Shown here one piece after another: positions 17,064-32,175 of a stretch of DNA of 36,567 bases. Each line of letters opens with the position of its first letter. Position 1 is the stretch's first letter. Below the pieces are notes generated by a model. It did not search any database and was not told the DNA's origin. It was given only the letters and a program-made list of their open reading frames with translations. The position numbers were made by a program, and so were the translations under genes. Source of the stretch: an uncultured Bacteroidota bacterium (GTDB taxonomy: Bacteria; Bacteroidota; Bacteroidia; Bacteroidales; VadinHA17); contig CAIMVD010000362.1 in NCBI GenBank assembly GCA_903844815.1, positions 1 to 36,567 on the forward strand. Reading direction: 5' to 3'.

Positions 17064-18021
17064 TTTTAGTATTGATAACCTTATTTTTAATTAGATAGCC
17101 TGGTCTGTTCTTAACCTCTTCATATATGCGCCATATATACTCTGCAATAATTCCAAGCGATAGAAGTATCACCCCACTAAAGAAGGAGATAATGAGAATT
17201 ATTGATGTCCAACCCTGAGGCTTATATCCCCAAAAAGATTCATTCCCGAAAATCTTTATATATGCATATAACAAAATTAATATAAATGAAATTATCGAGA
17301 AAAACAAGCCAAGATAAGAAATGAATTTTATTGGAAATGAGGAACTTGAAAAAAATGTATCCAAAGCTAATTTAAGCTTTTTTTTAAATTTCCATCTTGA
17401 TTTCCTGTTAATGCTCTTTGGTCTGGAATAAGGTAAATATAGCGGATTAAATCCGAGCCTTAGAATTTCCGGAACTATGGCTGTATTTATTGGTTTTATT
17501 CTTCCATTTATTATATCAATTATCTCCCTGTCTATTAGAAAAGAGTCTGCGCCTCCAACAGGGTAAGCTATTTCACTTAGTTTATTTATAATCGAATAAA
17601 ATCTTTGTGAAAACCAGACACTTATGAAGTCATCATCCCGCGACATCCTGTGCGGGATTATTACATTGTTGCCTTCGTTCCATTTCATATACATCTCTGT
17701 CACAATCTCATAAGGTAATTGTTCATCATCGGGAATGGCAACGGCACAACTTCCTGTACATTTGCTTAATCCTGCAAAGATTGAATAATCACTTGTATAA
17801 TTACGACTTAACTGATATGCAAAAACATTTGGATACCTGGATTCTATCTTCTGGGCAATATCAAACGAATTATCTCCTGAACCATCATCCATAATTATCA
17901 ATTCAAAAGGAATATGCTCCTTGTCGAATAACTCTTTTAATCGATCATGCACTGTATTAAGCCTTTCCCCACTAAAATAAGACAGGAGGATTATGGATAG
18001 CTTTCCATTTTTATTTTTCAT
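17053..18021 (-). CDS. Family 2 glycosyltransferase, GtrB-like with two C-terminal membrane helices
   Basis: The 322-residue protein has an N-terminal GT-A domain and two C-terminal membrane helices at about 232-256 and 270-296, the layout of GtrB/polyprenyl-phosphate sugar synthases. MDDGSGDNS (44-52) and [15 protein letters not shown] (71-85) are family motifs. The metal-binding site is unusual: where GtrB proteins have DADLQDPP, this one has PDDEQLPY (97-104), so the first Asp is Pro97 and a later Asp is Leu102, while D99 is retained. It overlaps the FdtB-like transaminase by 4 bp (ATGA). It could attach the locus-specific 3-amino sugar to polyprenyl phosphate, but that is inference. Confidence 0.8.
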
Positions 18022-19133
18022 TTTTGATATGAATTAATGGCTTCTACTACTTGTTCAATTTCTGATTGTTCTAATACAGGACTGATTGGCAGACTTAACA
18101 CTTCATCGTGTATCAGTTCAGTAATGGGAAGTCTATAGCCATTCATTTCCCGATATGCTTGCTGTTTGTGTGGAGGAACGGGGTAATGAATCAGAGTTTG
18201 AATACCAATAATTTCAAGATAGTTTTTCAACTTATCTCTGTTTTTTGATCGAATAACAAACAAATGCCAGACATGATCCAGGCGACATTCAACAAATGTC
18301 ATACTGGTTGGCAAAATAATTTCAGGATGTTTTATATTATCCAGATAGAATTGCGCAATTTCCCGACGACGCTGGTTGTCAGAATCAAGTCTTTTTAGCT
18401 TAACACGCAGAACTGCAGCTTGAATTTCATCAAGACGTGAATTCAGCCCTTTAAAATCATTGATATATTTCCTCGTTGATCCATAATTTGCCAAACCCCT
18501 GATTACTTCTGCCAATTCATTATTATCAGTAGTAACGGCACCAGCATCTCCCATCGCTCCGAGATTTTTTCCCGGATAAAAGCTGTTACCTGAACCATCG
18601 CCTATTGATCCAGTTGGCCTTTCATTATATCTACAGCCCTGCGCTTGTGCATTGTCTTCAATCAGTATAAGGTTATACTTTTCAGTTATCCTTTTAATTT
18701 CAGGGTGCATGGCATTTTGTCCATATAAATGTACAATCATTATTCCTTTAGTACGATGACTTATCTTTTCCTCAATCCTAAAAGGGTCAATATTGTAAGT
18801 CATTAGATCCGGCTCAACAAGTACAGGGACCAACCGGTTATCTGAAATTGAAAGAATTGAAGCAATATATGTATTCGCCGGAGCAATTATTTCATCTCCC
18901 TCCTTTAATCGTCCTAATTCAATATAAGCCTTTAAAACCAATCTTAATGCATCTAGCCCATTTGCGACTCCTATACAATGTTCAACATTTATATATTCGG
19001 CATATTCTTTCTCAAAAGAAGAAACTTCTTTCCCTAATAGATACCAGCCACTCCTAATTGTCCGATTAATTACTTCATTAATTTCATCCTCAAACCTTTT
19101 ATTTATCTTATATAAATCAAGAAATTTAATCAT
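18018..19133 (-). CDS. fdtB: DegT/DnrJ/EryC1 PLP aminotransferase, FdtB-type dTDP-3-aminosugar transaminase
   Basis: The start is set at 19133 ([15 protein letters not shown]), 371 residues, because family members begin just there; a longer frame to 19232 would add 33 unrelated residues inside the upstream gene. The start overlaps the preceding stop by 8 bp. This is a fold-type I PLP enzyme: D160 in IEDNAQAQG binds the PLP nitrogen and K189 in [17 protein letters not shown] is the Schiff-base lysine. The [10 protein letters not shown] version is typical of FdtB/QdtB/DesV-type enzymes that aminate C3 of dTDP-3-keto-6-deoxyhexoses. Adjacent WxcM/FdtA-type ketoisomerases supply that 3-keto substrate, supporting the call. 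The product would be dTDP-Fuc3N or dTDP-Qui3N; which one cannot be decided. Confidence 0.8.
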
Positions 19134-20106
19134 TTTCCAAGGTATAGTTTTCCAATATTTTATACTTTGCTGTTTCGATTTCGTAAAAATCATTACATAT
19201 AGTCCTGGCACCAAATCCTTCCTTCCATTCAATTAAGCCAAAATTAATTTCTCCCGGTTCAATTCCATTTGAAGAACCAAAACTGAAATATTTCTTTCCG
19301 CTGTACACGTCATTTATAAGTTTAGAAAAAAGATAGTCTATTGCACCCGAGGACTTACCAAACTCGGATGCTGAAATATATTGTGTGTGTGCAACAATCT
19401 CTGTTTCAAATATTGTGCACCCTGCTACAATTTCATCATCAACATAGGCAGAAAACTGTTTAATGTTCTCAGGTAATATATAAGCAAGTTGTTCAATTTC
19501 TGCAAGACTATGAACGGGTTTAACTTTATATGTATTTTGAAGATTAGGGATTAATATGTTGTTCCAGAATGTAGCATAACCCGTATCTTGTCTGATATTA
19601 ATGTTTAATTTCGCTGCCTTTTTTATTCCTCTTCTTCTTCGTTCCTGAAAAGGAAGCTTTAATGATAAGTCCAATATTGCAGAGGTATCCCTGCGAATTA
19701 ATCTTGCATCAGTTAGAAAAAGAACAAAATCTAATTCTCCTGAAGGAACTTTATGGTAAAAATCAGGAGAGGGTTTATAGATTAGTTTTGCAATTTTATT
19801 AGAAAAAAGAAATTTTAGGATTTTAGAGAAATAAAGAATAGATTTTCTCAAGGTCACGTTCCCTGGAAAAAGTAAACCTCCATAGGTTAGTCCCCCATGA
19901 GATATTACTGTACCATCAGTAATATTAGCAGGAAAAATTGCAACTAATATACTATTTTCAAGTACGATAAGAGAAAAATCTGAGAAACGATCAGAATGGT
20001 ACTCCATAAAATTACGATTATGAAGAAATGTACCATTTCTGGAATTATTTACCATTAAATTCCAGCCTTCATGATCAGTATTGCTATATTTTTCAACCTT
20101 AATCAT
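19126..20106 (-). CDS. FemAB/GNAT-like protein of the aminosugar module
   Basis: This 326-residue protein resembles GNAT/FemAB-like proteins often found beside FdtA and FdtB genes. Features are a [14 protein letters not shown]-like segment near residue 27 (here [15 protein letters not shown]), a central basic [11 protein letters not shown] stretch (about 154-164) and a C-terminal [25 protein letters not shown] region (about 278-302), analogous to the motif that ends FemAB domains. There is no signal peptide. Its ATG overlaps the stop of the ketoisomerase-GNAT fusion by 1 bp and its own end overlaps the transaminase start by 8 bp, so it belongs to the same translational unit. It might acylate an amino sugar or its lipid-linked form; donor and acceptor are unknown. 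Confidence 0.6.
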
Positions 20107-20966
20107 TACAAAACTAACGTCATAAAAAATACATTTTCCTTTTTGTCCTTGAATTTGAATCCATGTGAAATATATAGATTTATAGCTCTAATATTTGAAT
20201 CCGATACTTTAAGGTACAGCGATTTTAGTTTTATAACTTTGGCATATTTGATTGCTTCAGTTAGAATTATACTTCCAAAACCTTGACCCCAATATTTTCT
20301 TTCTCCAATATATCCCCAGAATTCTGCTGTCTCTTCAGTAATATGTTTTAATCCAAACGCACCAGCAGCTTCTTCATTTATTAAAATCCCTTTTATATAA
20401 TAATCTTTCAAAGACGACAGGGATTTAAACCACTGCTTTTGTGTATCTTCCGAAAACGAAGGTGTTAAAGTGAGCTCTTTTATTTCAGGATCCCTTAACC
20501 AAAACCAGGATTTCCTTAAAAATTCATCAGAATAGTTAATTATTTCGATTGAAACTTTTCTGGGATTTAGTTTTTTATAGGTGCTGTAATCCCTAATGTA
20601 GTCATTGCCATCATATAAATCAGAAGTTAGAACCAAAGCAATAGCTCCGGATGAGAAATTTAACTCATAAGCCCAAACCAAAGGAGGAATGTGCAATCCA
20701 TAAAATGGTCGATTAAGTGTAACTTTTTTTTCATTTGTGCCATCATCTAAGATAATTTCAAAACTTCCACTTGCCGCTATCAAAAATTGATGACATTCTT
20801 TATGAGCATGTGCCCCCCGAGATTCACCAGCAGGAATATCGTAGAGGTAAAAAACCCTTTTTACTCTAAATGGGAAGTTTTTTACCCCTTCCACTAATGA
20901 AATATTGCCAGTCCTGTATTCAATTTTAGGTAATTGAATTATTGAACAATCGGAGACTGATGACAT
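20106..20966 (-). CDS. WxcM/FdtA-like 3,4-ketoisomerase fused to a C-terminal GNAT N-acetyltransferase
   Basis: A 286-residue two-domain protein. Residues 10-133 form a cupin of the WxcM/FdtA family; the two active-site histidines of FdtA are kept as H53 and H55 in RGAHAHKE. Residues 138-286 form a GNAT domain of the RimJ/RimL type with the acetyl-CoA pyrophosphate loop RKYWGQGFGS (223-232) and SDSNIRAINLYISHGF (255-270). The first domain should convert dTDP-4-keto-6-deoxyglucose into the 3-keto sugar, and the second would N-acetylate the amine made by FdtB. The known bifunctional WxcM and FdtD pair a ketoisomerase with a left-handed beta-helix acetyltransferase, so a GNAT partner at the C-terminus is a different arrangement. 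The preceding FdtA-like gene ends 4 bp upstream. Confidence 0.8.
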   Translation of the reverse strand: MSSVSDCSIIQLPKIEYRTGNISLVEGVKNFPFRVKRVFYLYDIPAGESRGAHAHKECHQFLIAASGSFEIILDDGTNEKKVTLNRPFYGLHIPPLVWAYELNFSSGAIALVLTSDLYDGNDYIRDYSTYKKLNPRKVSIEIINYSDEFLRKSWFWLRDPEIKELTLTPSFSEDTQKQWFKSLSSLKDYYIKGILINEEAAGAFGLKHITEETAEFWGYIGERKYWGQGFGSIILTEAIKYAKVIKLKSLYLKVSDSNIRAINLYISHGFKFKDKKENVFFMTLVL

Positions 20967-20970
20967 ACTA

Positions 20971-21384
20971 CTAATGTGTTATTTTAGAAAATTCTTCGAA
21001 ATTCCTGATATAATCATCTTCATCATAAACTGTTGATGCTAGTATTAAAGCCAGAGAATTCGTTGAGAAATTTTCAAGCCTACGCCACAATAATTTTGGA
21101 ACATACAATCCTTTATATGATCTGTTAAGATGAAATAGTTGTTCTTTTTGCCCATCATTTAATACTATATCAAAACTACCTGAAAGTGCAACAATCAGTT
21201 CACAAGTTTCTTTAAATGCATGGCTTCCCCTGAATTCACCACCGGGTACATCATAAATCCAATATATACGTTCAATTTTAAATGGCACATGCTGAAATTC
21301 CTCTATTACAGAAAGGTTGCCACGGGGATCTCCAACCCTTGGTAAATCAATGATTTGGATTTTATCCGGATCAATTTTAATCAT
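20971..21384 (-). CDS. Standalone WxcM/FdtA-like cupin, one active-site His replaced
   Basis: The 137-residue single-domain cupin is collinear with FdtA along its whole length: GDPRGNLSVIEE (18-29), IERIYWIYDVPGGEFRGSHA (38-56), GSFDIVLNDG (69-78) and the YDEDDYIRNFEEF tail (120-132). FdtA has a His-x-His pair (H49 and H51). Here the first is kept as H55, but the second is Phe57 (SHAF instead of HAH). The neighbouring fusion keeps both. It may therefore make a different product, act with the fusion, or be inactive. Its start overlaps the DltD-like gene by 8 bp. The family call is firm; the reaction is uncertain. Confidence 0.8.
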   Translation of the reverse strand: MIKIDPDKIQIIDLPRVGDPRGNLSVIEEFQHVPFKIERIYWIYDVPGGEFRGSHAFKETCELIVALSGSFDIVLNDGQKEQLFHLNRSYKGLYVPKLLWRRLENFSTNSLALILASTVYDEDDYIRNFEEFSKITH

Positions 21385-22447
21385 TACTAAATTCTCCTGA
21401 TTTTTTAAATACTTTCATTAACCCATCTTTGTTCAAGTGGCTATAATCGTTAAAATCAATATTTGACACATCGCAATTTTCCGGATTATTCTGACCTACA
21501 ACTCTTATGTGTCTTTCTGCAGCATACCTAAACAAGTAATCTTCGTTTTTTTTCAGAATATTATATTGTTTGGACACATACTGGAAATAAACAGGATGAT
21601 AAACCAATAAATAAAAAACTACTTCAACACCATTACTTTGCAAATAAGTAACAAAGTGTTCGAGAGTTTGGATTTGAACTGTACTTATCTCAGAAAAATT
21701 TCTTAGCTCAGGTGCCGGTTTGTTTATTAACCGCTTCACCGAGCTTTCAATGCTTTCCCCTGTTTTTCTGGTATAATAATTCCCGTCATTATACGAGCCA
21801 TCTATTACCCTGGTTGCTCCGGTATTGAATTTTTCCTTTGTTGGATGCATCCCCTCATTGTTGAATGCCCTTACAACCGACTGCTGAAAATAACTGAGTG
21901 AGACTATTTCAAACAATTTATTACTTTTCTGACTAAAACTCAAATTATTACTTGTATTGAAATTTAAACCAATCTTCTTCATCATGTCATAATACTGGTC
22001 CTTCAAGGAAAACCAAAACTGATTATCCGGGCTATTTAGCATTTCAGGACAAATTCCCAGTATTACTTTTTTAGGAGTATACCCTTTATCCTGGTAAAGG
22101 TCATAAATTGACAAAAAATCATTAAAAGTGGCTGCTGAAACTGAATTGTTTATTAACTTTTGTCCAGGGAAAAAATCGGAATCAATGTACATTGAATTAC
22201 TTGTACCCAAAACAATAACATCAGGAGATTGGACCATCCCCTCAATAAAAAACTGTTGCAATTTCCGCTCATCCATGTTGGTGATATCAGTTACATTAAA
22301 CCCCGACAGAAGAAAATCGGCAATTCTATGTTCGTAATCATTCTTTGAGTCAAACAAATTGGCAGGATCGTATTTATAGTTAATTCCAATTACTAGTAGA
22401 AGAGGAAACATTGAAAAAATGAAGATCTTGAATAATAGTTTCTTCAT
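21377..22447 (-). CDS. Membrane-anchored SGNH/DltD-like protein, partner of the MBOAT
   Basis: A 356-residue protein with one N-terminal signal anchor (about residues 5-23), so the body is periplasmic. It has the SGNH-hydrolase hallmarks: VIVLGTSNSMYI (78-88), where S83 would be the nucleophile, and a C-terminal DYSHLN (D334, H337) matching the DxxH catalytic pair. MBOAT proteins of the DltB/AlgI/PatA type usually work with such a membrane-anchored SGNH partner (DltD, AlgJ/AlgX, PatB) that finishes acyl transfer or hydrolyses acyl groups. It starts 3 bp after the MBOAT gene, which strongly supports a functional pair. The substrate is inferred to be the locus polysaccharide. Confidence 0.75.
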   Translation of the reverse strand: MKKLLFKIFIFSMFPLLLVIGINYKYDPANLFDSKNDYEHRIADFLLSGFNVTDITNMDERKLQQFFIEGMVQSPDVIVLGTSNSMYIDSDFFPGQKLINNSVSAATFNDFLSIYDLYQDKGYTPKKVILGICPEMLNSPDNQFWFSLKDQYYDMMKKIGLNFNTSNNLSFSQKSNKLFEIVSLSYFQQSVVRAFNNEGMHPTKEKFNTGATRVIDGSYNDGNYYTRKTGESIESSVKRLINKPAPELRNFSEISTVQIQTLEHFVTYLQSNGVEVVFYLLVYHPVYFQYVSKQYNILKKNEDYLFRYAAERHIRVVGQNNPENCDVSNIDFNDYSHLNKDGLMKVFKKSGEFSND

Positions 22448-22450
22448 ATA

Positions 22451-23893
22451 TCAAAACTGAAAATAAATGAATTCGGATACCCCAAAAGAACCAAAAAACA
22501 TAATGCTAAAAATAAAAAAGTAATATACCAGCCATCTGAACCATCCAGGTTTATTATGCAATATCGAGCCGATATCTTCATGCTTGCTTTTCTGGTGCTC
22601 AATAATTTCAATTATCAAAATACCGATTAATATTACAAATACATCCTCAAATGTTATACCTAATCGTAAGCCCTGAGTAGTAAAACTAATATTTGTAACC
22701 AGATTTTTCAATGCTGCTATTGATTCTCCAATATTGTGGAACCTGAAAAATATCATTGTAAACCCCAGGAAACCAATTGTCAATATTCTGCTTACCGGAA
22801 AATAGACTGCTGATGGAATTTTATTTGACAATTTAACTCTTATCTTTTTTGTAAGAAATTCATATGAAACAGCCAGGGCATGAAGGAAACCATAAATCAC
22901 GAAATTCCAGGATGCTCCATGCCAGAAGCCAAGAATTGTAAACGTAATAATCAAAGCATAAATAGTTCCATATTTACCCCATCCTCTTTTACTAGCTGCA
23001 ACTGGTGTATATATATAATCCAGAACCCAGGATGATAAAGTTATATGCCATCTGCGCCAAAAATCAGAAATTGAAGTAGCCTGAAAGGGTCGGTTAAAAT
23101 TATCGGTAAGCTTATAACCCAGCGTCCTGGCCAAACCGAGTGCAATATCAGTATATCCGGAAAAATCAGCGTAAAGTTGAACAATATATAATCCAATTCC
23201 GATAATAAGACTCAAACCATGATAATCATCTACATTGTTGAATATAAGATTTGTAACAGGGTCTATCCTGTCGGCAATTACGAGCTTTTTAAAAAGTCCC
23301 CATAAAATTAGCTGTAATCCTGACTTAATATAATCATAATTAAAGCGCTTTTCTGATTTAATCTGAGGCAAAAAAAGATGTGCTCTTTCTATAGGACCTG
23401 AAATAAGTTTTGGGAAGAACATCACATAAGCTGCAAAATGACCTAGGTGTTGTTCGGGTTTTGCATTCTCCCAGTATATCTCAAGATTGTAACCGATAAC
23501 CTGAAAAACATAAAATGAAATACCTAAAGGAAGCAAAATGGATAACGGAGATAATTCAGTTTCGAGATTCAGGTTCCTGGCCACAAAAGCGATATTCTCA
23601 ATAATAAAATTAATGTATTTGAAGAAAACAAGAATTATAATATTGATTACTGTACTGAAAATAAAGATTCTCTTTTTACTTTTTTCTCTTACAGCATTTT
23701 GAATGCTTATACCGGTAAAAAAATTAAACAGTATTATGGGTAGAATCACCAATAAAAAAGCCGGAACATGATACATTATAAAAGCAGAACTCGCCAGGAT
23801 TAAGAATCCCCATTGCCATGTTGGCTTTATCGCGTAATATAGCAAAAAAGTTATCGCAAAAAATATTAAAAATTCTGTTGAATTAAAAACCAT
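22451..23893 (-). CDS. MBOAT-family O-acyltransferase (AlgI/DltB/PatA-like)
   Basis: The 480-residue integral membrane protein has about eleven helices and the MBOAT signature. LGFWHGASWNFVIYG at 321-335 contains the near-invariant catalytic H325, and a second conserved motif, DFWRRWHITLSSW (277-289), contains H283. FFPKLISGPIER (159-170) is also typical. MBOAT proteins of this group move an acyl group across the inner membrane onto an extracytoplasmic polysaccharide. Here the upstream genes encode an adenylating ligase and an acyl carrier protein, so the donor is probably acyl-ACP (the DltB arrangement) rather than acetyl-CoA (the AlgI arrangement). The SGNH-like partner follows 3 bp later. 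A 97-bp gap upstream separates it from the ACP. Confidence 0.9.
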   Translation of the reverse strand: MVFNSTEFLIFFAITFLLYYAIKPTWQWGFLILASSAFIMYHVPAFLLVILPIILFNFFTGISIQNAVREKSKKRIFIFSTVINIIILVFFKYINFIIENIAFVARNLNLETELSPLSILLPLGISFYVFQVIGYNLEIYWENAKPEQHLGHFAAYVMFFPKLISGPIERAHLFLPQIKSEKRFNYDYIKSGLQLILWGLFKKLVIADRIDPVTNLIFNNVDDYHGLSLIIGIGLYIVQLYADFSGYTDIALGLARTLGYKLTDNFNRPFQATSISDFWRRWHITLSSWVLDYIYTPVAASKRGWGKYGTIYALIITFTILGFWHGASWNFVIYGFLHALAVSYEFLTKKIRVKLSNKIPSAVYFPVSRILTIGFLGFTMIFFRFHNIGESIAALKNLVTNISFTTQGLRLGITFEDVFVILIGILIIEIIEHQKSKHEDIGSILHNKPGWFRWLVYYFFIFSIMFFGSFGVSEFIYFQF

Positions 23894-23990
23894 ATTTTCT
23901 AATCAGTTCAAAATATTAAATATTAGTTCTGCCATTTCGAAATTATACTAAATCATTCTACTTTAAAGCACCAAGGTAAAAAATACTTTA

Positions 23991-24230
23991 TTACATTTTC
24001 GATTGCACACTTTTACACATATCCTCTACATTTTTTAGCTTCATGATCTCCTTTAGTGTAAACCTGATTTTGTAATGCTTTTCTATCTCCGTAATTAAAG
24101 CCATATGGTTCAAGGAGTCCCAGCCGTCAACATCTTTTGCGGTTGTGTCCATTTTTAATTCCAATGACTCATTTGACAATAGCTTTTGGAAAAGGAGATT
24201 CAATTCTGATAAAATTTCACTAAGTTCCAT
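23991..24230 (-). CDS. Acyl carrier protein
   Basis: The start is placed at 24230 (MELSEILSEL, 79 residues), 4 bp after the thioesterase stop; an in-frame ATG at 24257 would add nine basic residues inside that gene. The protein is a small acidic four-helix carrier with the phosphopantetheine attachment motif GWDSLNH, in which S39 is modified. LKEIMKLKNVEDM at about 59-71 is the usual helix IV region. The carrier would hold the acyl or aminoacyl group loaded by the ligase at 24667-26169 and present it to the MBOAT. Its position in a ligase-ACP-MBOAT-DltD order argues against a role in general fatty acid synthesis. Confidence 0.9.
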   Translation of the reverse strand: MELSEILSELNLLFQKLLSNESLELKMDTTAKDVDGWDSLNHMALITEIEKHYKIRFTLKEIMKLKNVEDMCKSVQSKM

Positions 24231-24234
24231 ATTA

Positions 24235-24657
24235 TTAGTTTTTTTCGATTTTTTCAATTGCTTTTATTATAATATCGGGCAACAATGTCGGTTTTCCTGT
24301 TGATGCAGAAACAGTTGTGTGTTCTATCTCTGAAAAAGCAATCAGAGTTTTCATTTTTGACAAAATATAATGCTCCATAATGAATCCTTCTGGCAATATT
24401 TGTGATATTCGGGCACCAACTTCAATCTCATCAGGAAATGTAAGTGGCAAAAGAAACTGACAGCTAATAGATTTGATAACTGCATTAATACCTGTAGACT
24501 CAAAAAGACCAAAACAACCGCTTAGCTTATAATATTCAGAACGGGCTTGTTCAAAATAACGAAAATAATTAACATTATTTACATGCTTCAATGCGTCCAT
24601 ATCTCCCCAGGGAATTGGTAATAATACTTTTATACTAAAGAGTTTTAATGCTTCCAT
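24235..24657 (-). CDS. Hotdog-fold acyl-CoA/acyl-ACP thioesterase (4-hydroxybenzoyl-CoA type)
   Basis: The 140-residue protein is a single hotdog domain. WGDMDALKHVNNVNYFRYFEQAR (17-39) is the signature of the 4-hydroxybenzoyl-CoA thioesterase/YbgC/FatA-type family, with catalytic Asp candidates D19 and D21 and conserved H25, N27 and N28. It would hydrolyse or proofread thioesters on the neighbouring carrier protein, or release the acyl product. The classical dlt operon has no thioesterase, so its placement between ligase and ACP is unusual. It lies 9 bp after the ligase and 4 bp before the ACP, so co-translation is likely. The acyl specificity cannot be read from the sequence. Confidence 0.8.
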   Translation of the reverse strand: MEALKLFSIKVLLPIPWGDMDALKHVNNVNYFRYFEQARSEYYKLSGCFGLFESTGINAVIKSISCQFLLPLTFPDEIEVGARISQILPEGFIMEHYILSKMKTLIAFSEIEHTTVSASTGKPTLLPDIIIKAIEKIEKN

Positions 24658-24666
24658 AGTGCAATG

Positions 24667-26169
24667 TTATTTTCGAACCAAATCTTTCAAAACATTCCTG
24701 TCAATTTTCCCGTTTGCATTCAATGGCAACTTGGGCAGGTTTATAATCCCGGAAGGAAGCATATAGGCAGGTATAGTTTCCTTTAAAAGTGACATAATAT
24801 CCTTCGTATCTCCTCCAAAATTTTCTACAAAAAGGTAAATTTCAGAATTGAAATTCTCATCTTTTTTCTCGATAGCCACGAGAGAATCAATTTTAAAATT
24901 TTCTCTTACTGGAAATTCAATTTCGTTTAATTCCACCCTAAAGCCTTGAATCTGAATTTGATTATCAATTCTTCCACAATAGAAGAAATCTCCTTCGGTA
25001 TCGAAAAACCCTTCATCCCCAGTTTTATAATAAACAATTTCCTTGGGCTCATTATATGAGTTAAAAAATACCTCTTTATTTTTTGCAGAATTATTAATAT
25101 ACCCTTTTGTTAGCTGTTTTCCGCTAATTGCAATTTCACCCTTTAAACCTGGGGCAAGAAATTCACTAGTATCAGGATCACAAATAAATACCTTCATATT
25201 TTTTACATGATGACCAAGACACATAATGCCATTATAAGATTTTTGGCTGTCACATGCCGGATCGAAGTGATAATACAGACAAAACACCGTTGATTCGGTT
25301 GGACCGTAAAAGTTGTAAACTTCCGCATTTGGAATACAATTCATCCATTTCGTCAAAGTTGAATTATAAGATGCTTCAGCTCCAACAATGCAATATCTGA
25401 ATTTTTCCAAATAAATTTCATCAAAATAGGGGCTAAGAAAAGTCAAAACTGAAGGTACTATTAAGCCAATTGTTATCTCTTTTTCCTCCAAAACCTGAAT
25501 CACCTCCATATATTTAATATTATCAGATGATATAGTAAAGGAGCAAGCGCCTACACATATTGCGGGAAGATAGGACATTATAGACCCGTCAAAAGAAAAA
25601 TCAAACATTTGAAGAAAACGGTCATTCTCATCGAGTTTAAAGCCTACATCAAAATAAGATTCCACAAATGCATCAAGGTTTTCCCAACTGATTTGGACAC
25701 CTTTAGGTTTTCCTGTACTTCCTGATGTGAACAAAATATACGCGTTTCCCGATTTACTGATCCAGTTCCAGTCGATACCATTTTCCGAATTTATGCCAGC
25801 CGTACATATTACTGTCCTTTCTTCTGAGAGGTCATTTGCGAAAACACTATCTCTCGTAAGAAGAATATTAATACCTGTTTCATCAAGTATTTCCAAATTT
25901 CTTTTTTTCGGGTTTTTTGGATTAAGCGGAACGAATGCTCTTCCAGACGCCCATATCCCGAGTATTGAAGCATAGGTTTCTATTGAATTATCTGTAAGAA
26001 CCCCAATAATTGTCTCTTCGGTTGCATAAGTATATAATGCATTTTGAACTCCGGCAACACACCCGTCCAGGTAACTATAAGTATAATAAGTTTCATTTAT
26101 ACAAAAAGCATCTTTAAACTGAAATGTTTCAAAAGACTTCTTAATTAAAGTAATCGTTAGCGGCATCAT
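24667..26169 (-). CDS. Adenylate-forming ligase, DltA/NRPS A-domain-like, loading the ACP
   Basis: This is a stand-alone adenylation enzyme of about 500 residues. Numbered from a TTG two codons upstream of the chosen ATG, the core motifs are ILFTSGSTGKPKG (147-159, A3), NFYGPTEST (288-296, A5), YKTGD (383-387, A7), the GRIDNQIQIQGFRVELNEIE hinge (401-420, A8) and the catalytic K490 in NANGKID (486-492, A10). It should activate a carboxylic acid, perhaps an amino acid, as an adenylate and load it onto the ACP at 23991-24230. The ATG at 26169 overlaps the RffA stop as ATGA; a second ATG at 26166 is equally usable. The substrate is unknown because the specificity pocket cannot be decoded by eye. 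Confidence 0.85.
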   Translation of the reverse strand: MMPLTITLIKKSFETFQFKDAFCINETYYTYSYLDGCVAGVQNALYTYATEETIIGVLTDNSIETYASILGIWASGRAFVPLNPKNPKKRNLEILDETGINILLTRDSVFANDLSEERTVICTAGINSENGIDWNWISKSGNAYILFTSGSTGKPKGVQISWENLDAFVESYFDVGFKLDENDRFLQMFDFSFDGSIMSYLPAICVGACSFTISSDNIKYMEVIQVLEEKEITIGLIVPSVLTFLSPYFDEIYLEKFRYCIVGAEASYNSTLTKWMNCIPNAEVYNFYGPTESTVFCLYYHFDPACDSQKSYNGIMCLGHHVKNMKVFICDPDTSEFLAPGLKGEIAISGKQLTKGYINNSAKNKEVFFNSYNEPKEIVYYKTGDEGFFDTEGDFFYCGRIDNQIQIQGFRVELNEIEFPVRENFKIDSLVAIEKKDENFNSEIYLFVENFGGDTKDIMSLLKETIPAYMLPSGIINLPKLPLNANGKIDRNVLKDLVRK

Positions 26170-27314
26170 AAACAATAATGTTTCAATTCCTTAATAAAAG
26201 ATTTGATCTCTTTAGTTAAATATGAAATATTTTCCTGTGTTAATTCATAGAAAAAAGGTAATCTAATTAAACAATCAGAGTATCGATCAGTATTCTGCAA
26301 TTCTCTCCCAGCATTTTTATTTCTATAGAATTCTGATTTATGCAAAGAAAGATAATGAAAAACAGCACCTATTCCTTTTTCTTTTAACCTAATTAACAAT
26401 TTATTACGGAACTCTCCATCCTGACATACAAGATAGAACATGTGAGCATTATTAGTTGCATAATCAGGGATTGCTGGTAATTTGAAAAAAAAATCAGATT
26501 CATGTAGATTAAGGTTTTCCAGATATGTGTTCCATATCTCTTTTCGTCTGTTTTGAATAATATCAAGATTTTCCAATTGCGCGTATTGATAAGCTGCAAT
26601 AATATCAGAGGGTAAAAAAGAAGAGCCTATATCAACCCACCCGTATTTATTCACCTCCCCTCTGAAAAACTCAGCCCGGTTGGTTCCTTTTTCCCATATT
26701 ATTTCAGAACGTCGCAAAAAGCGTTCATCATTAATTACCAGCATCCCACCTTCACCGCATTGTATATTCTTTGTTTCATGAAATGAGAAACATCCGAAAT
26801 GACCAATCCCTCCCAGTGGACGACCTTTGTAAAAGCTGTCCATTGCCTGAGCGGCATCCTCAACCACAAAAAGGTTATACTTTGACGCCAATGCCATTAT
26901 CTTATCCATGTCGCAGGCAACCCCGGCATAATGAACCGGAACAATTGCTTTTGTACGGTTAGTGATCAGCTCTTCAATTTTATCCTCATCAATACCGGGA
27001 TGATCGGCACGACTGTCTGCAAAAACAATTCTTGCTCCTCTTAACACAAACGCATTTGCTGTAGATACAAAGGTGTATGATGGCATTATGACCTCATCGC
27101 CCAGCTGAATATCACATAGAATTGCAGCCATCTCAAGTGCATCAGTGCAACTGGTTGTAAGCAGGCACTTTTTAAAGCCATATCGTTGCTGAAAGAAATC
27201 ATGGCATAGTTGTGTATAGTATCCATTACCAGATATTTTACCCCTGGTTACTACATCTTTTATATATTCAAGCTCTTTACCAGCAATGTATGGTTTATTG
27301 AAGGGAATTTGCAT
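26166..27314 (-). CDS. rffA: RffA/WecE-type dTDP-4-amino-4,6-dideoxygalactose transaminase
   Basis: The 382-residue PLP enzyme is strikingly similar to E. coli WecE/RffA: IPFNKPYIAGKELEYI (3-18), GDEVIMPSYTFVSTANAFV (72-90), KAIVPVHYAGVACDMD (122-137), VVEDAAQAMDS with D153, SFHETKN with Schiff-base K182, and YGWVDIGSSFLPSD. WecE aminates C4 of dTDP-4-keto-6-deoxyglucose to give dTDP-Fuc4N. No rmlA or rmlB is in the window, so the substrate must come from elsewhere. It overlaps the DltA-like ligase by 4 bp, linking aminosugar synthesis with acyl activation. No WecD-type N-acetyltransferase is evident next to it, so the fate of the 4-amino group is open. Confidence 0.88.
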   Translation of the reverse strand: MQIPFNKPYIAGKELEYIKDVVTRGKISGNGYYTQLCHDFFQQRYGFKKCLLTTSCTDALEMAAILCDIQLGDEVIMPSYTFVSTANAFVLRGARIVFADSRADHPGIDEDKIEELITNRTKAIVPVHYAGVACDMDKIMALASKYNLFVVEDAAQAMDSFYKGRPLGGIGHFGCFSFHETKNIQCGEGGMLVINDERFLRRSEIIWEKGTNRAEFFRGEVNKYGWVDIGSSFLPSDIIAAYQYAQLENLDIIQNRRKEIWNTYLENLNLHESDFFFKLPAIPDYATNNAHMFYLVCQDGEFRNKLLIRLKEKGIGAVFHYLSLHKSEFYRNKNAGRELQNTDRYSDCLIRLPFFYELTQENISYLTKEIKSFIKELKHYCL

Positions 27315-27316
27315 GT

Positions 27317-27676
27317 CTATTTACTTGAAATGATTATGCCAAGAATTATTAGAACCAACCCAATCACTTTAAATATAGAAATTGTTTCATTCATAAAAAT
27401 GATTGAAAAAATAAAAACCAGAACATAAGCTAAACTCATAAATGGATAAGCGTAGCTTAATTCAAATTTTGTTAATGCTGCCATCCAACAAATTGAAGCC
27501 ATAAAAGCCGATACAAATCCTGATAATACATATGGATCCAATAAAAGCTGAAGTATGAACATCAGTTTTGGAATAAAATTTTCAGGTAAATTGCCATGTA
27601 AAACAATTCTCTGCTTAAGGATCAATTGTCCATAAACTGTAAAGATAATTGTGAGGAAAATATACAAATAACCCAT
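27317..27676 (-). CDS. Small EamA/SMR-like four-helix transporter (ArnE-like)
   Basis: A 119-residue protein with four predicted membrane helices and the pattern of half-size EamA/small multidrug resistance-type proteins. FTVYGQLILKQR near residue 12 and WMAALTKFELSYAYPFMSLAYV (about 64-85) match ArnE/ArnF and related flippases. ArnE/ArnF move undecaprenyl-phosphate-aminoarabinose across the inner membrane. With GtrB-like synthases and several GT-C-like proteins in the same locus, a role in flipping a polyprenyl-phosphate sugar is reasonable. ArnE/F act as a pair, whereas only one such gene is seen here, so it may be a homodimer. It ends 2 bp before the RffA start. Drug export is a less likely alternative. 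Confidence 0.75.
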   Translation of the reverse strand: MGYLYIFLTIIFTVYGQLILKQRIVLHGNLPENFIPKLMFILQLLLDPYVLSGFVSAFMASICWMAALTKFELSYAYPFMSLAYVLVFIFSIIFMNETISIFKVIGLVLIILGIIISSK

Positions 27677-28440: not shown

Positions 28441-29116
28441 AATTATTTGATTTTGAAATTCGTTTCCCTGAATATAAATTTCGATAATAATACTCTTCAA
28501 ATCCCGCATTTTTCATTGCAAGTGCAACTTTATCAATATCATACTTAACTCTTTTTAAACTAATTACACCATCCTTATAGATGCAATAAGCTGCTTGGGG
28601 ATTATTATCCCTTGGCTGACCAACCGAACCCGGATTACAGTAAGTCTTATCAATGAGTTTATTAATGACTTGAATATGAGTATGTCCTGAAAAGAAATAC
28701 TTTTGGCTCTTATCCCTAAAATAATTAGAATCTATTTCATAGATATACTCATCTAATAAGTTATTCCATCCACCATGTACCATTGAAAGTTCTTTATTAT
28801 TAAAATAGGAGATGGATTTGTTAAGCCAATTGATAGAAGCCTCTGTAATTTCTTTTCTTTGAAAATCCAAACATTTATTAGCACTATGTGACCTTGGACA
28901 ACACACGCCATTTAAGATATAGAAATCATGGTTACCCATGATGTTAATAATTCTTCGTTTATCAAGTATTTCGATACACTCATTAATAAAGCAATAATAA
29001 CCAGCTACATCTCCCAACGAAATTATTTGGTCACAATTATTATTTTCAATATCATTAATAACTGCTTCCAATGCTGGTAAGTTGCCATGTATATCAGAAA
29101 TTATCGCTAATTTCAT
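28430..29116 (-). CDS. Calcineurin-like metallophosphoesterase (YfcE/MJ0936-like)
   Basis: The 228-residue protein has all metal-binding motifs of the calcineurin-like phosphoesterases: D8-x-H10 in SDIHGNLPAL, G35-D36, GNHD (61-64), H114 in VHGG, and GHTH (144-147). NPGSVGQPRD (161-170) is the typical late motif of the YfcE/MJ0936 branch, whose members act on phosphodiesters or phosphomonoesters. There is no signal peptide, so it is cytoplasmic. It starts inside the ATP-grasp gene (23-bp overlap) and ends inside the methyltransferase gene (11-bp overlap). This is unusual company for such an enzyme and suggests a substrate produced within the pathway, though a housekeeping role cannot be ruled out. 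Confidence 0.85.
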   Translation of the reverse strand: MKLAIISDIHGNLPALEAVINDIENNNCDQIISLGDVAGYYCFINECIEILDKRRIINIMGNHDFYILNGVCCPRSHSANKCLDFQRKEITEASINWLNKSISYFNNKELSMVHGGWNNLLDEYIYEIDSNYFRDKSQKYFFSGHTHIQVINKLIDKTYCNPGSVGQPRDNNPQAAYCIYKDGVISLKRVKYDIDKVALAMKNAGFEEYYYRNLYSGKRISKSNNYEY

Positions 29117-30062
29117 AAATAATATCTGCTATGTATCGTACTGCCTTTCCTTTTAGAACTTGAGATGGATTCGGTTTTGAGCTATTTAAAAAAAAGTCTA
29201 AACACATTTCCGCTTCATTATATCCAAAAGATGTTCTTATTGAGGTAGATGAAGAAATTCTGGGATTAATTTCCAGTAAAAAATATTCATCTCCATGTTT
29301 CCTAAACTGAAAATTTGTTGGTCCAATTGGCTTAAAAAGTCGAACCAGCCGGTTAATACTCTCATCAATTTTGTCAATTTCTACAACTTCTGCCGATTTT
29401 GTTGCTCCTTCTCCGCTTAGTTTTCTTTTGAAAATTATTGATCTGCTTGAATTGCCATCTCCATATCCAAATATTGCTGCAGTAAACTCTTCCTCATCTG
29501 TTCCAATATATTGCTGAATCATAAAGTCTCCTTTTGTTTTTTCCTTCCAATACTCATAATCAGCAGAATCATATATTTTCACTATCCCTTTACTGGCATA
29601 TGAACATCTTGGTTTTAATAGGAATGGTATTCCAACTAAATCCTTTGAGGTAGTAAAATCCTTTTCTACATATGTTGGTATTGCTGGGAAATTTGATTTT
29701 AAAAGAGTTTGATGCATCAACCATTTATCAAATGATTTAAAGATTAAGTCCTTATTGTTCAAAGCAACTTTAACTTTACTATCTACATTCTGTCCCTTGC
29801 TCGCCCAAAAAATAACATCTTGTTCAATGGCAGGAATAATCAAATCAATTTTATGTTTTATAAGTATTTCTTCTAATTGGTTCACATAGCCTGGGTCTTC
29901 AAGGGGTAAAACTTGTTCGAATGAATCACACCAATTTTGACCAACAGCGTTAGGGAAAATGTCAATCCCAATTATTTTAACATCGTATTTGGATGAGCGG
30001 AGAGAGTTTATTACACCATATCCAATTACTGCACCTACACCAGTTACTAGTATGTTCTTCAT
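29094..30062 (-). CDS. ATP-grasp ligase (CarB-like fold)
   Basis: The 322-residue protein has an N-terminal Rossmann-like half (ILVTGVGAVIGYGV, 4-17), an ATP-grasp lysine in PFLLKPRCSYASKG (146-159, K150) and the metal/ATP-binding end FLLEINPRISSST (261-273, E264, N266, R268). ATP-grasp enzymes join a carboxylate, via an acyl phosphate, to an amine or thiol. Homologues resembling the carbamoyl-phosphate synthase large subunit recur in surface-glycan loci, mostly without a tested function. Joining an amino acid to an amino sugar or uronic acid is a reasonable guess. It is co-translated with the metallophosphoesterase (23-bp overlap). A second, distinct ATP-grasp gene lies at 31060-32175. Confidence 0.8.
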   Translation of the reverse strand: MKNILVTGVGAVIGYGVINSLRSSKYDVKIIGIDIFPNAVGQNWCDSFEQVLPLEDPGYVNQLEEILIKHKIDLIIPAIEQDVIFWASKGQNVDSKVKVALNNKDLIFKSFDKWLMHQTLLKSNFPAIPTYVEKDFTTSKDLVGIPFLLKPRCSYASKGIVKIYDSADYEYWKEKTKGDFMIQQYIGTDEEEFTAAIFGYGDGNSSRSIIFKRKLSGEGATKSAEVVEIDKIDESINRLVRLFKPIGPTNFQFRKHGDEYFLLEINPRISSSTSIRTSFGYNEAEMCLDFFLNSSKPNPSQVLKGKAVRYIADIIYEISDNF

Positions 30063-30120: not shown

Positions 30121-31056
30121 TCAAATTGATTTATAGATATTACGAACTATAAATGTTTGTCTGTTTTTTACCTGGTTAAATAGTTTATCTATGTAAATAC
30201 CTATTAAACCAAGTGAACTAACTATAATTCCAAGCGAAAAAAGCAATACCACAATTACAAAAGTAAATCCTGAAAGAATTTCGTTAGGGTAAAAAAGTTT
30301 CTTCACAATGAAATATCCACCTGTAAGAATACTTAAAGATGCTATAAAAATCCCGGTTTTGAATAAAAGAACCAAAGGGTATGAAGAGAAAGAAGTTATT
30401 GCCTGCAAACTTAAAAGTAATCTTTTTCTAAATGTATAAGTACTTTTGCCCTCCCTTAATCCTTTTTTTATTGTCAAAGGTATTTGTTTAAAGCCTGCCC
30501 ATTGCATCATACCAGCAAGAAATATGTTTTTATCCCCCATTTTTACTACTTCATCCACAAATCTTTTTGTCATCAATCTCTCTGCAAGACTGTTAGAATG
30601 AACTTTGATGTCAGTAAGGCTATTAAATAACTTGTAGAATATGCTACCTAAAATTCTCTCAATAAAAAAACCTTTTCTTTTATCTTGAATTCCAAATACT
30701 ACATCACAATCTATATTTCTTTCCATTGTTTTGTAAAACTTAGACAAGGTCGTTGGTGGTACCTCCATATCACAATCAATTAAGAAAACCAGCTCACCTG
30801 ATGAATATGTTAAGCCAGCCATAATTGCATTATGATGACCAAAATTTCGTGACAAATCTATTACAATGATATTTTTATCCTTTTCTCTAAGTTTTAAAAC
30901 CTCATTTAGGGAATTATCTGGAGATCCATCATTTACAAATATAATTTCATAACTAAGGCATTGTATTTCGGCCAAAGTAATAATGCATTGAGAATAAAAA
31001 TCATGTATAAAATTTTCAGATTTATACATTGTTGTTACTATTGACAAATGAGGCAT
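30121..31056 (-). CDS. Family 2 glycosyltransferase, GtrB-like with two C-terminal membrane helices
   Basis: The 311-residue protein has a GT-A domain with IVTTMYKSENFI (6-17), FVNDGSPDNSL (40-50), LSRNFGHHNAIMAGL (68-82) and an intact metal-binding DCD (94-96). Two C-terminal helices at about 228-250 and 263-290 give the GtrB topology. GtrB-type enzymes attach a sugar to undecaprenyl phosphate for flipping and use by a membrane glycosyltransferase. It lies between the two ATP-grasp genes, 3 bp after the first. Unlike the GtrB-like protein at 17053-18021 its DxD motif is canonical. Confidence 0.85.
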   Translation of the reverse strand: MPHLSIVTTMYKSENFIHDFYSQCIITLAEIQCLSYEIIFVNDGSPDNSLNEVLKLREKDKNIIVIDLSRNFGHHNAIMAGLTYSSGELVFLIDCDMEVPPTTLSKFYKTMERNIDCDVVFGIQDKRKGFFIERILGSIFYKLFNSLTDIKVHSNSLAERLMTKRFVDEVVKMGDKNIFLAGMMQWAGFKQIPLTIKKGLREGKSTYTFRKRLLLSLQAITSFSSYPLVLLFKTGIFIASLSILTGGYFIVKKLFYPNEILSGFTFVIVVLLFSLGIIVSSLGLIGIYIDKLFNQVKNRQTFIVRNIYKSI

Positions 31057-31059
31057 ATT

Positions 31060-32175
31060 TTAAATTTTTATGCGTTTTTCTGCTTGATAAATACAATATC
31101 CAGACCTGTCGGCACTCTGTTTCAAAGGTATTAATTCTTCTGAGGTTATTTCTGATCGTACTATATTATGCTGATCTTCATTATCAATGAATTCTCGAAC
31201 ATGTTTTGATATTTCAGAATAGAAGTAAACCCCGGAAAATTTTTTATGACTCTTCTCAGGGATTTCAAACTTTCCAACGGCAACCTGTAGCACTCCTTTA
31301 AGGAAATCATATCCAGTTGAAAGATATACCAGGTCGGAACCAATAAAATCTCCACCCATTCTTGCGCCGATCTCTGTAACATATATACCTTTTGAAGAGA
31401 TTATAAACTCAGGATGACTTGCGCCGTTTCCAATCTCTAATGCATCAAGTCCTTTTTTTGAAGCTTCAAAAATTTCTTTTTGAATGTCTTGTGGCAATTG
31501 ACTAGGCTGATGATGGGCCAGTTCCACAAAGTGAGGAGCCCCTGAGGTTTCCTTATCGGTTATAGTTAACCCGTAATGAACACCACTATAGCTTATCATT
31601 TCGACACTTACTTCGATCCCTTCAACAAATTCTTCAACAATTGCCTGATTACATAATGAAGATTTCAATGCAATTTTAGTCGCAAACTTAAGTTCATTTT
31701 CATCTAAAACTTTCGTAACCCCCTTGCTGCCAGAACGATCAACCGGCTTAACAATCGCAGGATAACTAATGCTCTTCCCAACAGTTCGTGCATCAGATAT
31801 ATTTTTAATAAGAAAAAAAACAGGGCAGTTCAAACCAACTTCCTTTAACCTTTCCCTCATTAAAAATTTATTAGTTGAATACCTGGCTGAATCAATACTG
31901 TTACCAGTCAGTCCCATTTTTGAAGCAACATAGCTCACTGTTGGTACAGCAACATCTGAGGCGATGGATAGGATTCCATTTATATTTTCTTTCTGACAAA
32001 TTTCGAGTATTAATTCCTTCTCAACAATGGAAATCGGATAAAAAGTATCACAATAATCTTTAGCAACAGCTCCTTCCTCCCAGGCAAATCCAATAGTTTT
32101 AATCCCGATTTCTTTTGCTTTCAGGTAAACAGGTAGTTGAAGGTAACTGGCTCCTATTATGGCTACATTCTTCAC
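31060..32175 (-). CDS. ATP-grasp ligase (carboxylate-amine ligase-like)
   Basis: The 371-residue protein has an N-terminal preATP-grasp Rossmann half (VAIIGASYLQLPVYLKA, 4-20), the NKFLMRERLKEVG segment (102-114), ATP-binding YPAIVKPVDRSGSKGV (138-153, K143), IVEEFVEGIEVSVEM (179-193) and the metal site VTEIGARMGGD (266-276, E268, R272). A HHQPSQLP motif near 221 resembles that of dipeptide/L-amino-acid ligase-type ATP-grasp enzymes. It likely forms an amide or peptide bond during decoration of the glycan or its precursor, but this is inference. It is the first core gene after the Wzc-like kinase, 69 bp downstream, and is followed 3 bp later by a GtrB-like GT2. Confidence 0.8.
   Translation of the reverse strand: MKNVAIIGASYLQLPVYLKAKEIGIKTIGFAWEEGAVAKDYCDTFYPISIVEKELILEICQKENINGILSIASDVAVPTVSYVASKMGLTGNSIDSARYSTNKFLMRERLKEVGLNCPVFFLIKNISDARTVGKSISYPAIVKPVDRSGSKGVTKVLDENELKFATKIALKSSLCNQAIVEEFVEGIEVSVEMISYSGVHYGLTITDKETSGAPHFVELAHHQPSQLPQDIQKEIFEASKKGLDALEIGNGASHPEFIISSKGIYVTEIGARMGGDFIGSDLVYLSTGYDFLKGVLQVAVGKFEIPEKSHKKFSGVYFYSEISKHVREFIDNEDQHNIVRSEITSEELIPLKQSADRSGYCIYQAEKRIKI

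Follow-up and report, generated by a model that had tools for sequence, protein, structure and literature searches.

A carrier protein and a shuttle-bearing MBOAT share a cassette in a Bacteroidota polysaccharide locus: a candidate system for aminoacylation of a periplasmic glycan

A cassette that appears to join a loading arm to a shuttle-bearing transfer arm

The 36,567-nucleotide stretch of DNA analysed here (hereafter the window), from an uncultured Bacteroidota bacterium (contig CAIMVD010000362.1, assembly GCA_903844815.1), is a polysaccharide locus of the Wza/Wzc/Wzx type that reads on the minus strand. It contains six genes that encode, in transcription order, an RffA/WecE transaminase, a stand-alone adenylation ligase, a hotdog thioesterase, an acyl carrier protein (ACP), an MBOAT acyltransferase and an SGNH-type protein. 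We consider it fairly likely that this cassette would carry out carrier-fed aminoacylation of a periplasmic glycan, the aminoacyl group passing from His325 of the MBOAT to Tyr477 of its own tail, then to the SGNH protein and finally to a sugar as an ester. The cassette is best read as the loading arm of a Dlt or Alm system joined to the transfer arm of a Pat/Alg-type system, i.e., as parts of a Gram-positive-type and of a Gram-negative-type machine. The parts taken singly are familiar, and what appears to be new is their combination; among the matches listed from the open-licence literature (titles and abstract openings), no description of a ligase, a carrier and a shuttle-bearing MBOAT together was found.

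The first-pass annotation had claimed the six genes, and their places and order were borne out by the open reading frame calls and by the Pfam/NCBIfam scores. The genes, all on the minus strand, are tightly packed: that of RffA (26166..27314) overlaps that of the ligase (24667..26175, with a likely ATG start at about 26169), 9 bp lie between the ligase and the hotdog gene (24235..24657), 97 bp between the ACP (23991..24257) and the MBOAT (22451..23893), and 3 bp between the MBOAT and the SGNH gene (21377..22447). The ACP (PP-binding, 25 bits against a cut-off of 21) carries its phosphopantetheine (Ppant) site in the sequence GWDSLNH. With its listed TTG start it would share 23 bp with the hotdog gene; the true start is probably an internal ATG, which gives 79 aa as in many relatives. 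By the yardstick used for Dlt, a carrier with a Ppant serine near the ligase, the window has such a carrier, with the hotdog gene in between. The MBOAT (MBOAT model, 92 bits) has H325 and ends in SEFIYFQF, the last six residues of which form an acyl-tyrosine shuttle motif that includes Tyr477. The SGNH-type protein, the putative membrane-anchored periplasmic partner of the MBOAT, has GTS at residues 81-83, DYSH at 334-337 and one N-terminal hydrophobic helix. Thus, the ACP, MBOAT and SGNH motifs and the membrane anchor described earlier were all present.

The shuttle tail is general, the carrier is not

The current model of envelope acylation, as given in the part of a 2025 account cited here (PMC12148441), pairs the use of a carrier with a separate DltX and the use of acyl-CoA with a fused shuttle. 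There, PatA is shown to become acylated at the tyrosine of its tail, and a peptide with the acylated tyrosine to supply PatB; in Dlt systems the motif is found on DltX, a protein of its own, whose tyrosine accepts the acyl group and hands it to DltD. In the same part, the PatAB and AlgI-type pairs are described without a carrier and with acyl-CoA as the donor, and MBOAT/SGNH pathways with a built-in shuttle are said to have no carrier protein. The cassette has the carrier and the fused shuttle together, and therefore it can separate carrier use from shuttle type; the question it raises is whether a Pat/Alg-type MBOAT can be supplied by a carrier protein.

H325 and Y477 were invariant in the six MBOAT sequences aligned, that of the window included. 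In loci chosen by their ligase, the terminal F-x-Y-x-x-F/Y was present in 24/24 full MBOATs, and a carrier was located 500 bases or less upstream of 17 of these. A control was then chosen by MBOAT similarity instead (80 MBOAT matches in 60 relatives, from which 30 loci were taken, one per genome). The tail was found in 29/30 loci, the exception being a broken frame, and a carrier was directly upstream in 4/30, including the window; a carrier upstream of such MBOATs is not the default arrangement. In the MBOAT tree the carrier-linked proteins did not form one group and five changes were needed; the place of DltB in this tree is unsure because it is a very long outside branch. The DltX of Enterococcus casseliflavus ends in FIYNEF, and the DltB of the same species has no such tail. 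A Parabacteroides MBOAT pair is also tailed (FIYFQF), with no carrier annotated beside it. On a Metabacillus plasmid we found the order ACP-ligase-MBOAT-hypothetical protein, in which the ligase lacks the Asp expected for amino-acid activation (see below), the MBOAT ends in FIYGGF and the hypothetical protein has a GAS motif and no DxxH. Since this set has both a carrier and a fused shuttle, the combination extends beyond the Bacteroidota, and such sets may serve amino acids and other acids alike. In addition, genomes of the window's genus have an MBOAT match in an open frame of about 1000 aa (973-1010 aa; 26/80 rows of the MBOAT search); in the six loci of this kind that were read (L135-L138, L141 and L142), the MBOAT forms the C-terminal part and ends in FIYFRF, an apparent fusion.

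The SGNH-type protein had no match to Pfam or NCBIfam models. A profile of the window and L013 proteins (L013 is the closest related locus, see below) matched, with 98% probability, a profile of 20 proteins encoded downstream of other MBOATs, not all of which show both the GTS and the DxxH motifs. Comparison with single sequences was uninformative (0.4% for DltD, 4% for the Parabacteroides partner and 23% for the Metabacillus protein), and when the sequences of the SGNH pair were searched against the structure database, the single match was weak and seemingly unrelated. The GTS and DYSH motifs would fit the catalytic Ser and Asp/His of such enzymes.

The ligase-carrier-MBOAT-SGNH core recurs in relatives

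A first search, at 1e-30, found ligase matches in 11 of 60 relatives, many within long frames resembling those of nonribosomal peptide synthetases (NRPS). A second search, at 1e-85, found the ligase in 4/392 genomes of the phylum, 30/393 of the order and 4/117 of the family. The window's own genome is part of each of these four counts, and the sets of genomes share members. One further scan of genome contigs gave 5 loci with the ligase. Neighbours were counted at 44 ligase places by six-frame comparison on the strand of the ligase, over a range of 6 kb on its downstream and 3 kb on its upstream side. Among these places are a pair of incomplete copies in L014, L069 at a contig edge, L026 and L089 with two copies apiece and the near-identical L016 and L017; L096 is not among them. 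A carrier was present downstream at 34/44 places, an MBOAT at 21/44 and both at 19/44, or 35 with a carrier and 20 with both when the carrier of L097 is added. The earlier proposal of a Dlt-like, carrier-dependent acyl relay into an MBOAT/SGNH pair gains support from these 19 places, and the recurring core is ligase-carrier-MBOAT-SGNH.

Two parts that had been taken as distinctive do not belong to this core. The hotdog gene was found at 1/44 places and a WecE-like transaminase directly adjoining the ligase at 2/44 (the window and L013), with a third DegT-family gene 5.6 kb downstream of the ligase in L084. A thioesterase that defines the cassette was thus rejected. Of the linkage of five genes that the first-pass annotation had expected in related genomes, that of four is conserved and that of the thioesterase is not. 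The slot after the ligase varies, being occupied by a VOC-type protein in L018, L088 and L090, by a 220-aa GNAT at 14/44 places and by the hotdog protein, of the YbgC/FadM type (4HBT_2, 72 bits), in the window. Homologues of the latter (E 1e-12) occur in 4 other genomes among the 393 of the order and are 27-34% identical; the 1.5 kb flanking them on each side gave neither a carrier nor an MBOAT match. The hotdog protein is most likely an optional accessory that would clear wrong loads off the carrier.

The closest relative of the cassette was found in L013, a Bacteroidetes metagenome-assembled genome from Lake Pavin, with 60-78% identity over the core (RffA 70%, ligase 67%, ACP 78%, MBOAT 71%, SGNH 60%; the ACP of L013 has 81 aa). 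Its order is EamA, GT2, WecD-like GNAT, RffA, ligase, ACP, MBOAT, SGNH, FdtA, FdtA and FemAB-like protein, followed by a hexapeptide transferase, an FdtB-like transaminase, a GtrA-like protein and a GT2; no hotdog gene was found in L013. From RffA to the FemAB-like protein the order is that of the window, at 40-78% identity. Next nearest by its MBOAT, and among the five nearest by its ligase, is L084, where the ligase is followed by an acetyltransferase-type protein (PF13480), the ACP, the MBOAT and the SGNH protein, and then by a GDP-mannose dehydratase and a DegT transaminase. FdtA- and DegT-family genes also lie around the cassette of L093, so several cassettes have amino-sugar surroundings. 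No amino-sugar gene was recognised by the query set (not a full annotation) in the stretches around the cassettes of L072, L073 and L097.

The ligase probably activates an alpha-amino acid

The ligase (AMP-binding, 175 bits) is a stand-alone amino-acid adenylation enzyme resembling the loading ligases DltA and AlmE. It scored 294 bits with TIGR01733, just under the cut-off of 317, and 260 bits with the DltA models, below their curated cut-offs of 476 and 560. In gramicidin synthetase GrsA numbering, Asp235 and Lys517 are what we take to be the sites that bind the amino and the carboxyl group of the substrate in amino-acid adenylation enzymes; D196 and K490 of the window ligase occupy these positions. 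Both residues are kept in 42/42 full-length ligases aligned, and hence the cargo would probably be an alpha-amino acid. This narrows the acyl or aminoacyl cargo proposed earlier, an amino acid being likelier than a short acid.

The specificity pocket of the window ligase, DGMLIGFVFK, is common to the window and L013 alone and is without the DltA-like Cys at position 301. The commonest pocket, DLMLLCVIFK (12/42 ligases), resembles that of DltA (DLMILCTVAK in E. casseliflavus). With the pocket stretch of L021, which has this commonest pocket, the top structure match was 4oxi, presumably the structure of AlmE; with that of the window, DltA structures ranked first and 4oxi far lower, and with the whole window ligase the domains of gramicidin synthase led. 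The isoleucine code of bacitracin synthetase is given as DGFFLGVVYK in the cited part of PMC2866473. Because the window pocket is identical to this code at 5/10 positions and to that of E. casseliflavus DltA at 4/10, a hydrophobic amino acid may weakly be read as the cargo in place of D-alanine.

Other adenylation enzymes were observed beside this group. The ligases of L069, L074, L075, L085 and L091 form a separate group with the pocket DAHKLGVINK or DAHKLGVVNK, a carrier present and no MBOAT in range, and FemAB-like genes adjoin those of L074, L085 and L091. Several open frames on contigs C91, C173 and C372 of the window's genome are very long (from about 1090 to 4094 aa) and contain adenylation domains, as in NRPS genes.

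Relation to known systems and proposed mechanism

The cassette resembles the Dlt system (dltXABCD, D-alanylation of teichoic acids) in its amino-acid ligase, carrier, MBOAT catalytic His, SGNH partner and acyl-tyrosine motif, and differs from it in that the shuttle is fused to the MBOAT, whereas that of Dlt is on the separate DltX, and in its pocket. No separate DltX was found in the cassette, the part that was searched, where the gaps are too small for one (97 and 3 bp, with RffA overlapping the ligase). A plain Dlt operon was ruled out, since the DltA models and that of DltB (169 bits with the MBOAT, curated cut-off 375) scored below their cut-offs and DltX was lacking from the cassette. With the PatA/PatB and AlgI-type pairs it shares an MBOAT with a catalytic His and a C-terminal FXYXXF and a separate SGNH protein encoded directly downstream; unlike them, it has a ligase and a carrier upstream of the MBOAT. 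AlmEFG, which places glycine on the lipid A of Vibrio cholerae, likewise has a stand-alone amino-acid ligase and a carrier in a Gram-negative bacterium, and to our knowledge AlmG is not an MBOAT/SGNH pair. The acceptor of AlmG is an acyl chain of lipid A, according to the cited part of PMC12930378. Finally, the dra locus of Bordetella, described in part in PMC4448142 as adding D-alanine to the outer membrane, is similar in that an amino acid is added to a Gram-negative envelope.

From the homology with Dlt and Pat, the following steps are proposed. In the cytoplasm, the ligase would turn an alpha-amino acid into its adenylate and load it onto the phosphopantetheine arm of the ACP, from which the hotdog protein would most likely remove wrong loads. 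The MBOAT would carry the aminoacyl group across the membrane by means of His325 onto Tyr477 of its own tail, and the FIYFQF tail would pass it to Ser83 of the SGNH protein, which would esterify a sugar hydroxyl on the periplasmic side of the inner membrane. The acceptor that we infer is most likely in the polysaccharide of the Wzx/Wzc/Wza locus, and possibly the 4-amino-sugar derived from RffA. The ArnC-like transferase and the ArnF-like flippase encoded nearby may supply this sugar in a form linked to polyprenyl phosphate; the link to the RffA sugar is suggested by the gene order in two genomes and by the presence of these two proteins.

A bolder reading, which we hold only tentatively, is that the cassette belongs to a third type of envelope acylation system found across the Bacteroidota, in which a shuttle-bearing MBOAT would be fed by an aminoacyl carrier, with varied pockets, and therefore several amino acids, and with a slot between the ligase and the carrier that hotdog, GNAT or VOC proteins could fill in turn; in the window, a lipid-linked branch with a 4-amino-sugar would receive a hydrophobic amino acid outside the cytoplasm. 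If carrier-fed aminoacylation is correct, amino-acid esters are to be expected on the capsules and exopolysaccharides of cassette-bearing Bacteroidota. These would change how such polysaccharides are charged and recognised, and the amino acid used could be predicted from the pocket type.

Alternative readings

Several observations weigh against aminoacylation by the MBOAT/SGNH pair. At 15/34 places a ligase-carrier pair has no same-strand MBOAT within the searched range, and so it could be a different acyltransferase that the carrier serves; two candidates, the GNAT and the FemAB-like protein, are encoded downstream in the window. In L084 the protein between the ligase and the carrier is of the same family (PF13480) as the FemAB-like protein of L013, and in 3/19 places (L071, L081 and L082) the MBOAT is more than 4 kb from the ligase. 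Furthermore, 26/30 MBOATs of this type are without a carrier and presumably use acetyl-CoA. The pocket code is a weak predictor of the cargo, and the predicted structure of the SGNH protein (pLDDT 43) is too poor for use.

The places without an MBOAT, the L084 protein and the carrier-less MBOATs speak for the main rival, which we consider improbable: the ligase and the carrier would feed a cytoplasmic N-acyltransferase, FemAB-like or GNAT, that forms an amide on a 3- or 4-amino sugar before export, and the MBOAT and the SGNH protein would be an unrelated O-acetylation pair fed by acetyl-CoA. Amide-linked N-acetylalanyl groups on 3-amino- and 4-amino-6-deoxyglucose are known in Gram-negative polysaccharides (PMC3210612, cited in part), and FemAB- or GNAT-type proteins are found at some of the carrier-bearing places that have no MBOAT. 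In addition, a capsule-type locus on the plasmid record of Segatella copri DSM 18205 (L099) has, by its annotation, a ligase, an ACP, an AAC(3)-family transferase and an alanine racemase, a set that suggests an alanine tag made without an MBOAT. Against this stands the ACP close upstream of 17/24 full MBOATs, although these loci were picked by their ligase. The FemAB query recognised no such gene beside the other MBOAT-linked ligases, but it missed that of L084 too. Moreover, no amino-sugar gene is annotated in the 11-kb stretch around the Metabacillus ACP-ligase-MBOAT set.

A second alternative, in our view very unlikely, also employs the MBOAT/SGNH pair, which would attach the amino acid to the RffA sugar at its free 4-amino group and thus form an amide outside the cytoplasm. 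In both the window and L013 the RffA gene overlaps or adjoins that of the ligase, and the 4-amine may stay free because no WecD scored above the cut-off in the genome and no WecD-like gene lies next to RffA in the window. To this extent the earlier claim that RffA has no N-acetyltransferase beside it held in the window. However, a GNAT domain fused to FdtA is encoded downstream of the SGNH gene (20106-20966) and could acetylate the amine, and in L013, whose cassette is the same, a WecD-like N-acetyltransferase (PRK10975, 109 bits, cut-off 219) is encoded directly before RffA. The MBOAT/SGNH pairs in the cited part of PMC12148441, in turn, yield O-acyl products.

Least probable of all is a short or hydroxy acid as the cargo; the similar Metabacillus set, whose ligase is nearest to acyl ligases and does not have the Asp, and a second, distant ligase of L019 (about 23% identity) that adjoins a carrier and an MBOAT speak for it, and the Asp235 and Lys517 of the window, L013 and all 42 full-length homologues and the best models of the window ligase (amino-acid adenylation and DltA) against it.

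Amino-sugar and neighbouring genes

RffA, a dTDP-4-amino-4,6-dideoxygalactose transaminase that would form the sugar donor arm, scored over both curated WecE-type cut-offs (PRK11706, 574 against 375 bits; TIGR02379, 517 against 435 bits), and RmlB, the dTDP-glucose dehydratase, was found elsewhere in the genome (449 bits, over its cut-off). The adjacent gene (27317..27676, minus strand) encodes a small EamA protein (34 bits) that resembles ArnE/ArnF (50 bits with the ArnF model, below the cut-off of 99), a candidate flippase for a lipid-linked amino sugar; a gene near RffA in L013 is 53% identical. Further along (30121..31056, minus strand), a polyprenyl-phosphate sugar transferase of the ArnC/PgfS kind (PgfS 190 bits, ArnC 111 bits, both under cut-off), with C-terminal hydrophobic helices, is a candidate partner of RffA and the EamA protein. 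With the ArnC-like and ArnF-like proteins nearby, the RffA sugar would reach the outer face.

The gene run continues unbroken past the SGNH gene, on the minus strand, into FdtA and FdtB genes, so that the cassette lies between 4-amino-sugar and apparent 3-amino-sugar genes. An FdtA-type dTDP-4-oxo-6-deoxyglucose 3,4-ketoisomerase (20971..21384, 169 bits) overlaps the SGNH gene. It is followed by a second FdtA (20106..20966, 167 bits) fused on its C-terminal side to a GNAT N-acetyltransferase (Acetyltransf_1, 49 bits), which is the only match of the genome to the WecD model at E 0.001 (20.7 bits, far under the cut-off of 219); in L013, by contrast, FdtA, the WecD-like protein and a hexapeptide transferase are each encoded by a gene of their own. 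The next protein (19126..20106), a FemAB/GNAT-like acyltransferase, is 41% identical to L013:14128-15072, which matches the FemAB model TIGR03019 (57 bits, cut-off 260) and Acetyltransf_6 (35 bits); the window protein itself had no match in the Pfam/NCBIfam scans, and the pair together gave a weak match (E 0.06) to a solved aminoacyl-tRNA-dependent peptide synthase. Next in the run is an FdtB-like 3-aminosugar transaminase of the DegT family (18018..19232, 333 bits), 57% identical to the L013 copy and with no NCBIfam model over its cut-off. The FdtA and FdtB genes look like a dTDP-3-amino-sugar set.

Upstream in the gene run, the window encodes two ATP-grasp ligases, carbamoyl-phosphate-synthase-like (29094-30062) and PylC/D-Ala-ligase-like (31060-32175), with a metallophosphatase and a methyltransferase near them. 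A PaaK/FlxY-like adenylate-forming protein of 472 aa (5775-7193) is encoded amid glycosyltransferases, and PaaK/FlxY-like genes were also observed near the cassettes of L015-L018.

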